A stretch of 42,181 bases of DNA, from IMG/VR virus record IMGVR_UViG_3300025879_000039, positions 1 through 42,181 of that record; one strand, written 5' to 3'. The stretch is from a virus. Under the pieces are notes generated by a model, which ran no database searches, was not told the origin of the DNA, and saw only the letters and a list, made by a program, of their open reading frames with translations. The position numbers and the translations under genes are program-made. The first letter of the stretch is position 1, and every line of letters starts with the position of its first letter. Below, in pieces: positions 3,011 through 10,323 of this stretch.

Positions 3011-3394
3011 TTAGCAAACATTATTCAAATAATCACAGTACATTTTTGCCTGTTCTTCGCTATGCATAAAGAAAACTACTTCTAAACCTTTGCCATCGAG
3101 TACTGCCTTACCTTGTTTTCTACCAACCCTAAAAGGCGGTGTATATTTGTTAGCATCATAACGTTTCACAACATCGGTTATAGTTAATTTCTTTTCAAGT
3201 GCTTCTATATAGCCTTTTAATTTATTGCTTTCGTTTTCAAGTTCTCTAACCTTACTTATAACTGAATTTAATTGCTCTTTATGATATATTTTTGCATAAG
3301 CCTTTATATCTGCTTTGTGGCATCTAAAAAAATGTTTGTCATCACTATCAACTAGGCTCATTATTTTATCTAAAAACTTTTCACTTTCTGTCAT
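3011..3394 (-). CDS. Coiled-coil hypothetical protein, 127 aa
   Basis: A 127-aa protein with a helical N-terminus, a central coiled coil at about residues 46-72 (KVRELENESNKLKGYIEALE) and a C-terminal alpha/beta part ending YCDYLNNVC. The coiled-coil segment is nearly identical, in protein and DNA, to one in the 8449-8694 gene, while the rest differs. Its start ATG overlaps the stop of the upstream 3391-3696 gene (ATGA). Function unknown. Confidence 0.6.
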   Translation of the reverse strand: MTESEKFLDKIMSLVDSDDKHFFRCHKADIKAYAKIYHKEQLNSVISKVRELENESNKLKGYIEALEKKLTITDVVKRYDANKYTPPFRVGRKQGKAVLDGKGLEVVFFMHSEEQAKMYCDYLNNVC

Positions 3395-8754: not shown

Positions 8755-8859
8755 TTAATTAAAATTTACATTATTACAGTATTTACATGTGTAGTACGAA
8801 ACACTACCTGAGTTAAATTCTGTAGATATATTACCGCATTTACAGAGTTGGGTTTTCAT
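8755..8859 (-). CDS. Zinc-knuckle peptide, 34 aa
   Basis: ATG 8857-8859 to TAA 8755-8757. The peptide has LCKCGN near the N-terminus and TCKYCNN near the C-terminus, i.e. CxC and CxxC pairs about 16 residues apart, a minimal zinc ribbon. It follows the tRNA-Gln gene by 15 nt and ends just before the next promoter. Small, but the cysteine pattern makes chance coding unlikely. Confidence 0.5.
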   Translation of the reverse strand: MKTQLCKCGNISTEFNSGSVSYYTCKYCNNVNFN

Positions 8860-8874
8860 AGTTAATTATTTTAG

Positions 8875-8946
8875 TTGTCCCACAAGGACTCGAACCTTGA
8901 ATGCCGGTACCAAAAACCGGTGTGTTACCAATTACACCATGGGACA
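8875..8946 (-). tRNA. tRNA-Gln (anticodon TTG)
   Basis: A complete cloverleaf reads on the minus strand: acceptor TGTCCCA/TGGGACA, D-stem GTGT/ACAC with AATTGGTA loop, anticodon stem CCGGT/ACCGG with loop TTTTGGT (anticodon TTG), T-arm CAAGG-TTCGAGT-CCTTG and discriminator A. The CCA end is not encoded. It decodes CAA, which suits the AT-rich codon use of this phage. It lies directly downstream of the structured RNA region. Confidence 0.93.
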
Positions 8947-9238
8947 TTACTGTAGGCGACCGGGAAAAGCCCAATCCTTAATCCCATGAAGGAACATATA
9001 TCCACAATGTGGACCTACATATAGAGAGGTTTCGGGTCTTTCAAGGTTACTGACTAAGCCTGATTTTACCTATACCTACTGTTAACCTTTTTTCAGTATA
9101 GTCACCTTTATCAGTGGTGTGCTCGTTACAGCTTCACTACCTCTCTCTTAATAAGCGATCCAACCACTTTACACCTGCAAGTGCAAGAGGTTGAGGAGCT
9201 AATTGCATGCACAACCTAGTTGGATCTATTTATAATAT
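8947..9238 (-). ncRNA. Structured non-coding RNA region, two closed domains
   Basis: No reading frame is present in this interval. On the minus strand one domain is closed by the perfect 8-bp pair GATCCAAC (9226-9219) / GTTGGATC (9164-9157) and contains AGGTTG/CAACCT and TTGCAC/GTGTAA arms, a three-way junction of 70 nt. A second is closed by AGAGAGGT (9146-9139) / ACCTCTCT (9030-9023); inside it AAGGTTA/TAACCTT (7 bp) and TGACTA/TAGTCA (6 bp) cross, so a pseudoknot is possible. A TCCAC/GTGGA hairpin and GC-rich sequence follow up to tRNA-Gln. GC content is visibly above the neighbours. The family is not recognised; the size and the tRNA neighbours recall large phage ncRNAs such as GOLLD, without sequence proof. 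Confidence 0.65.
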
Positions 9239-9352
9239 AAAAAAACTAGATGTGTTATAGGCCGAGGTTCAAAAACCCCATACTATACAAAGCACGATTC
9301 TTATTTGTAACCCAAACGCGCCCAGGTGCCGATGCAACGCCATCTAGCTTTT
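9239..9352 (-). ncRNA. Discrete ~110-nt ncRNA with own promoter and terminator
   Basis: Transcription from the promoter at 9360-9390 should begin near 9350. The sequence then opens at once with AAAAGCTAGATG, which pairs with CATCTAGTTTTT at its far end (stem core 9347-9341 with 9252-9246; 12 pairs with one G-U), followed by a T7 run at 9245-9239 that would serve as terminator. Inside lies a 6-bp hairpin GGGGTT-TTTG-AACCTC and G-rich sequence. No open frame of note. Promoter, closing stem and U-tract together mark out a self-contained small RNA. I do not recognise it as tRNA, tmRNA, 6S or RNase P RNA. Confidence 0.65.
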
Positions 9353-9359
9353 GTATACT

Positions 9360-9390
9360 TAAATATACGAAATATATCTCGCATATCCAA
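9360..9390 (-). promoter_or_regulatory. Predicted promoter for the ncRNA cluster
   Basis: Minus strand: TTG (9390-9388), 20 nt, then TATATTTA (9367-9360), with CG just before the -7 box. The TTG is part of TTTG. It lies between tRNA-Ser and the ncRNA and points into the ncRNA, with no protein gene for 500 nt downstream. Confidence 0.75.
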
Positions 9391-9409
9391 ACTTTTTAGA
9401 TACTTTTTG

Positions 9410-9494
9410 CGGAAGATGAGGGATTCGAACCCCCGGACCTGTTACAGTCAACAGTTTTCAAGACTGCCGCATTCGACCACTCTGCCAATCTTCC
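9410..9494 (-). tRNA. tRNA-Ser (anticodon TGA)
   Basis: A class II tRNA on the minus strand: acceptor GGAAGAT/ATCTTCC, D-arm with GCAGAGTGGTCGAATGC, anticodon stem GCAGT/ACTGT with loop CTTGAAA (anticodon TGA), a long variable arm (TGACTGTAACAGGTC) typical of tRNA-Ser, T-arm GGGGGTTCGAATCCCTC, discriminator G. CCA is not fully encoded. It decodes UCA. It begins 7 nt after the queC stop codon, so it is probably co-transcribed with queC and cut from the mRNA. Confidence 0.93.
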
Positions 9495-9501
9495 TACCTT
9501 T

Positions 9502-10323
9502 TTAAGCTACGTAATCAGCTAATACTTTCTCTACTGCAGCTCTTGCTACATCATAAGATACAGGTCCTGTTTCGTCTTCGTATTGAACTGGATCTTTACG
9601 TCCTAGTTTAATAAATGCTTCAATACGTTCTACTGAAGAAGCTGATTTGTAATCTGAGTTACCTGATGGATAAGGTTTATAGGACGTATTAGTTCTTTTA
9701 TAGACTTCATCAAAATCTAATCCAAGTTCTTCACATAATTTTTCACCATCCTGTAAAATAGTAAATTTATCTCCTTCTAAATAAGGTGTAAAATAACCTA
9801 CTCTATCAGCGTCCCAGTTACCCATTCTAAAAGCTGCATCATCTGCATCTCTGAATTCTTGTCTACAGTCAGGGTAAACGGCATGATCACCAGAATGGAT
9901 ACCTAAAGCGATATCACAAGTTTCTTCTGTTCTATTTGCAACTGATAATGCAACGGCTTGAGTAATAGAAGCGAACATCTTGTTTCTGTTAGGAACAACT
10001 GTTTCTTTCATATTATCTTGCTCATAATGTCCTTCTGGTACATCATCTCCACCATCAACTAATGCTGAATCTAATAAATCTACTAGTCCATCTAATTTAA
10101 TTTGACGATAATTTACCGTACACCCATTAAAACAATTTTCATCTGAGGGGCAGTTTTTATTAATATAATCTACTAATGATTGAGCTCTCTCTAACTCTAC
10201 TCTGTGTTTTTGACCATAATCGAATGAGATAGCTGTTACAGAATCGTATTCTGATAATGCTCTTAATAATAATGTTGAGGAATCCATCCCTCCTGATAAG
10301 GATACTACTACATGTTTTGCCAT
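9502..10323 (-). CDS. queC: QueC-like 7-cyano-7-deazaguanine synthase
   Basis: A 273-aa member of the QueC ATP-PPi family, which converts carboxy-deazaguanine to preQ0. The PP-loop SGGMDS is at residues 10-15, followed by the family motifs [20 protein letters not shown] and [16 protein letters not shown]. The C-terminal zinc site, normally C-x(8)-C-x2-C-x2-C, is altered: TNTSYKPYP and [13 protein letters not shown] have Ser or other residues in place of all four cysteines. A separate insert, [11 protein letters not shown] near residue 57, carries three new cysteines. In phages QueC often supplies deazaguanine for DNA modification that evades restriction; no partner gene (queD, queE, folE, dpdA) is in this window. 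A tRNA-Ser follows at once. Confidence 0.85.

Follow-up and report, generated by a model that had tools for sequence, protein, structure and literature searches.

What does a phage carry between two neighboring tRNA genes, and is such a space occupied by one RNA or by several? The question is raised by positions 8,947-9,238 of a 42,181-nt stretch of DNA (hereafter the window; IMG/VR virus record IMGVR_UViG_3300025879_000039), which a sequence-only reading had described as a large structured RNA domain pair lying between a small RNA and tRNA-Gln. The region is indeed without an ORF, none of at least 60 aa overlapping it, and its GC content is raised as claimed, at 41%, where the window as a whole has 33% and the other intergenic DNA 26%, a value that 2.9% of 292-nt windows reach. 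The strand, however, had been mistaken. Every gene of this 42-kb phage contig, tRNA-Ser and tRNA-Gln included, is carried by the minus strand, so that the transcript corresponds to the reverse complement of the plus strand that had been folded. Positions 9347-8951 of the minus strand contain four distinct RNA modules head to tail in the order D-C-A-B, each 67-124 nt long and about 400 nt in total, flanked by tRNA-Ser and tRNA-Gln. The "domain pair" was thus a misreading of three modules (C, A and B), and the "small RNA" is the fourth, D. ARAGORN and Rfam call only the two flanking tRNAs in this region and none of the modules A-D. The features, in the order of transcription, are as follows.

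9409-9494, minus strand: tRNA-Ser (TGA), by ARAGORN and Rfam, the neighbor upstream of the modules.
9354-9372, minus strand: promoter-like repeat TTTCGTATATTTAAGTATA, directly upstream of D.
9246-9347, minus strand: RNA module D, with closing helix CTAGATG/CATCTAG and inner hairpins.
9157-9226, minus strand: RNA module C, a three-way junction closed by GATCCAAC/GTTGGATC, with the conserved loop ATGCAATTAGCTCCT.
9023-9146, minus strand: RNA module A, with P1 AGAGAGGT/ACCTCTCT, P2 CTG/CAG, P3 and a pseudoknot, and conserved AGTGAAG and GAAAGACCCGAA.
9083-9089, minus strand: 5' pseudoknot strand of A, AAGGTTA, in the P3 loop.
9043-9049, minus strand: 3' pseudoknot strand of A, TAACCTT, pairing with the P3 loop.
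9031-9042, minus strand: near-invariant unpaired core of A, GAAAGACCCGAA, from sequence comparison.
8952-9018, minus strand: RNA module B, with P1 GTAGG/CCTAC, P2, P3 and P4 in a four-way junction.
8874-8946, minus strand: tRNA-Gln (TTG), by ARAGORN and Rfam, the neighbor downstream of the modules.

The repeat TTTCGTATATTTAAGTATA has near-identical copies on the same strand at 6897-6879, 8728-8710 and 12027-12009, and its five matches compare with 0.14 expected. It is promoter-like, and the transcript that contains the modules and tRNA-Gln probably starts there. The tRNA array is adjoined by a QueC (7-cyano-7-deazaguanine synthase) gene at 9502-10323, and in several relatives A lies directly downstream of QueC. 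On the other side, after tRNA-Gln, a minus-strand ORF of about 34 aa (8755-8859) carries CxC and CxxC and looks by eye like a zinc ribbon; by eye, too, it is followed by a terminator-like hairpin.

The long-range helices are present where they had been placed. The closing helix of C pairs GATCCAAC (9226-9219) with GTTGGATC (9164-9157), P1 of A pairs AGAGAGGT (9146-9139) with ACCTCTCT (9030-9023), and the P3 loop of A pairs as a pseudoknot with the seven bases that follow CAG and precede GAAAGACCCGAAA. Shuffled-sequence folding is a weak test: on the plus strand 31 of 200 shuffles folded as well (z -1.04), and on the minus strand 8 of 200 did (z -1.72). It is by comparison with relatives that the structure is far beyond chance. 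In an alignment of 33 copies of A (A3), the 29 pairs in four helices, pseudoknot included, are 90.8% kept, and double-sided changes fill 153 cells against 40.6 +/- 6.5 in shuffled alignments, none of 500 of which reached that number. The covariation score is 0.449, against 0.152 when shuffled and at most 0.146 with the partner slid. For the pseudoknot, 6 or 7 of the 7 positions of the partner strand are paired in all 47 copies, compared with 24% in shuffled loops, and compensatory variants include AGGGTTT/AAACCCT, AAGCATT/AATGCTT, ATGGTTT/AAACCAT and AGGCGTT/AATGCCT. P2 is CTC/GAG in Klebsiella and E. coli phages and invariant CTG/CAG elsewhere. The comparative evidence for the structure of A is decisive, and the compensatory changes bear out both the AAGGTTA/TAACCTT pseudoknot and the more general claim that this phage tRNA cluster harbors structured non-coding RNA. 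A second crossing helix that had been proposed, TGACTA/TAGTCA, is not kept in relatives (TGATCA in L303, none in L330).

Part of the invariance of the core GAAAGACCCGAA is ascertainment, since our first scans demanded it; the copies of A found with a pattern free of this demand have few changes there. We took the string GUGAAG...GAAAGACCC to resemble 23S rRNA near the peptidyl transferase center, a likeness that we regard as chance because the Rfam listing holds no rRNA match. In the window, A (9023-9146) belongs to a subtype whose variable region has a possible second loop pairing, CTGAT/ATCAG, also seen without variation in L303, L313 and L330. In three loci (L087:3205-3310, L108:12830-12945 and L112:1390-1505), A lies within an outer helix, GGCAG/CTGCC, whose flanks are conserved, and it may there be part of a larger RNA. 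Just upstream of tRNA-Cys in Flavobacterium phage immuto (L001:2200-2330) there is a divergent A-like element, in which an extra hairpin separates the pseudoknot strand from the core.

The first relatives of A were found downstream of QueC on viral metagenome contigs, and further copies came from pattern scans of IMG/VR, a covariance model (R1) and a profile search; protein-coding pattern hits (e.g., L084, L099 and L127) were discarded for want of the pseudoknot. The profile search yields at least 118 unique copies at E<1e-6, never two in one locus, and R1 finds exactly one copy per record in 34 of 34 matching records, jumbo phages and large tRNA arrays included. The hosts of these phages include Bacteroidota, Escherichia, Klebsiella, Proteus, Erwinia and Rhizobium. 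Among isolated phages, R1 matches the Klebsiella phages RaK2 (E 1.5e-13) and KP13-26 (E 1.3e-12), Erwinia phage Hena1 (E 7e-12, between tRNA-Gly and tRNA-Glu), Proteus PM135 (E 4e-10), Rhizobium RHEph12 (E 1.6e-5), the E. coli Mosigvirus mogra (E 5.9e-5, between tRNA-Met and tRNA-Arg) and Cellulophaga phi14:2. By BLAST, A is also found in further Klebsiella, Pectobacterium and Pseudomonas phages.

Module A exists in two circular permutations. Nine copies (L229, L231, L232, L235, L237, L239, Cellulophaga phi10:1 and phi19:3, and Rhizobium RHEph12) follow the order P3 loop, CAG, pseudoknot, core, P1 as a hairpin, AGTGAAG, CTG, P2; other hits to the permuted pattern (L230, L234, L236, L238 and L240) lack the pseudoknot and were set aside. 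All nine can form P1, P2 and the pseudoknot with differing sequences, the pseudoknot pairing, for example, as AAGGTCA/TGACCTT, AAGCATT/AATGCTT or AGGGATT/AATCCCT, and therefore, as far as sequence comparison tells, selection acts on the fold of A rather than on the order of its strands. In Cellulophaga and Rhizobium phages, some of the permuted copies are found outside tRNA arrays, with protein genes on both sides.

A compact fold of this kind could be a new class of self-cleaving ribozyme, in which P1, P2, P3 and the pseudoknot would bring about a cut in the conserved core and so separate transcripts in or near tRNA arrays. We hold this possible, though the less probable reading. The retention of P1, P2 and the pseudoknot in the nine permuted copies is in its favor, as are the conserved unpaired strands that surround the pseudoknot. 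It keeps its standing because hammerhead and twister are self-cleaving classes with natural circular permutations (PMC10085705) and the 3' ends of phage tRNAs are a known site of HDV-like theta ribozymes (PMC10879173). However, permutation is not specific to ribozymes, being known from SRP RNA and tRNA genes too (PMC10085705), and outside P1 there is no conserved sequence where a tRNA end would be released. Moreover, A occurs exactly once per record even beside many tRNAs, and it is therefore no general tRNA-trimming device.

The other modules are conserved as well. B has 16 unique copies, one of them in Flavobacterium phage immuto just before tRNA-Gln, and B lies 4 nt before tRNA-Gln; its 18 pairs are 98.1% kept, and its TCC strand may pair with either of two partners. 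Of the 14 unique copies of C, 13 precede a tRNA or A by 2-6 nt, with copies 2-3 nt from tRNA-Thr, tRNA-Glu or tRNA-Ser; its 19 pairs are 96.6% kept, with double changes at nine of them. For both B and C, none of 500 shuffles matched either the cells paired or the covariation score. D has five unique copies and recurs in L106, L187, L148 and L197; in L106 it sits exactly between tRNA-Glu and tRNA-Ala, with gaps of 2 and 3 nt. Across four sequences, double changes occur at 5 of the 29 consensus pairs of D, and its closing helix varies in compensation. The structures of B and C are supported by covariation, and that of D rests on four sequences. In the window, the closing helix of D is followed by a terminator-like run of seven U (9245-9239, minus strand); an intrinsic terminator is nevertheless rejected, because this run is missing after D in L106 and the terminator scan was empty. 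All four modules are conserved structured RNAs with copies in other phages.

This independence bears on whether the region could be one large ornate RNA of the GOLLD or ROOL type, as the sequence-only reading had suggested. GOLLD and ROOL are often found near phage tRNA islands (PMC12286853), which is the setting here. However, a search of Rfam 15, both at gathering thresholds and at E<=10, returned only tRNAs and sub-threshold chance matches, with no family for A, B, C or D; the GOLLD, ROOL, HEARO and intron models gave no match even at E<=10. The total length is only about 400 nt, and all four modules recur independently of each other. A single RNA spanning the region is rejected, since the modules occur apart in other genomes, and a single ornate RNA is extremely improbable; what we find instead is several small, independent families. 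Their orders also differ among loci: D-C-A-B in the window, A-B in L186, C-A in L269, A-C in L322, D-A in L187 and A-D in L148. Therefore, the modules have been shuffled between arrays.

The modules mostly lie 0-7 nt from a tRNA or from another module. A tRNA on the same strand is found within 40 nt of A in 74 of 118 copies, compared with 3.4% of random positions, with gaps mostly of 0-5 nt. Many copies start 0-5 nt after a tRNA, and many others lie only 5' of one. The 44 of 118 copies with no tRNA within 40 nt include some at contig ends or beside other modules or degenerate tRNAs, and others that are not so placed. Such tight packing on tRNA ends would suit modules that act in cis, as spacers or folding aids for the processing of tRNA precursors, with no function once released. 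We consider this improbable, as most tRNA pairs in the same arrays do without modules, every family possesses a conserved core of its own, A occurs in a single copy, and permuted copies of A lie outside tRNA arrays. In the tRNA array of Klebsiella phage KP13-26 (L226) many further spaces of 80-250 nt between tRNAs look structured and are unannotated (9-116, 287-476, 562-778, 855-1103, 1370-1455, 1705-1833, 1910-2041, 2118-2245 and 3124-3332); these may be more RNA families.

From this analysis we infer a function for the modules along the following lines. The reading that we prefer, with a probability of roughly 0.55, is that they are small RNA genes, four in number and independent, that ride in a tRNA operon of the phage, their products being released by tRNA maturation and stable thereafter, with A acting in trans. 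They would be co-transcribed with the tRNAs of the operon and freed by the enzymes that mature tRNA ends, RNase P acting on the downstream tRNA and 3' nucleases on the upstream one. Once released, they could persist as small stable RNAs, for which RNAC and RNAD of T4 would be the precedent. A would then be a compact pseudoknotted RNA acting in trans, in which the near-invariant strands AGUGAAG and GAAAGACCCGAA would make up a site where a ligand, or a protein of the host or the phage, binds. We favor action of A in trans over self-cleavage, as each record has a single copy and not one for every tRNA, although invariant unpaired strands and circular permutants would suit a ribozyme about equally well. 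More tentatively, A may represent a ribozyme class not seen before, which has natural circular permutants and is spread over phages of both Bacteroidota and Proteobacteria, and tRNA arrays of phages in general may carry several RNA gene families that have yet to be described.

Phage tRNA operons carry at least four RNA families that are not in Rfam, and one of them, A, is widespread, single-copy, pseudoknotted, circularly permuted and present in phages that grow on laboratory E. coli. This makes the old question of the role of extra RNAs in phage tRNA clusters directly testable, and A is a candidate new ribozyme or a candidate phage RNA that binds a host factor. The spaces between phage tRNAs deserve to be annotated rather than left blank. 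In the open-access literature we found no description of these RNAs.

Several known systems invite comparison. The modules resemble GOLLD and ROOL in being phage non-coding RNAs near tRNA islands without a known function; however, GOLLD and ROOL are large oligomeric RNAs, whereas the modules are four independently recurring RNAs of 67-124 nt. With theta ribozymes, of which a tested example of 56 nt cleaves at a tRNA 3' end (PMC10879173), A shares the character of a small pseudoknotted phage RNA adjoining tRNAs, mostly in Bacteroidota phages. A is longer, though, lies on either side of tRNAs and has a different core. Theta ribozymes form a nested double pseudoknot with an HDV core, whereas the one conserved pseudoknot of A joins its P3 loop to a strand of 7 nt; the HDV models in Rfam do not match A. 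Like hammerhead and twister, A is a compact fold with natural circular permutations, its catalysis being only a candidate property, and the hammerhead and twister families in Rfam do not match the modules. A parallel in setting is offered by T4, where RNAC (species 1, 139 nt) and RNAD (species 2, 119 nt) are packed beside tRNA-Arg in the tRNA cluster; both come from the T4 tRNA region and have been seen on Northern blots, their roles being unknown (PMC9697503, PMC3014915). Homology of A-D to these two was rejected, as no profile matches in their genes: R1 has no significant match in T4, the profiles of B and D have none, and that of C reaches only E 0.02, outside the RNAC and RNAD genes. The modules are likewise encoded within a phage tRNA cluster near tRNA ends, and we place them with a kind that is already known, the structured phage RNAs of tRNA clusters.
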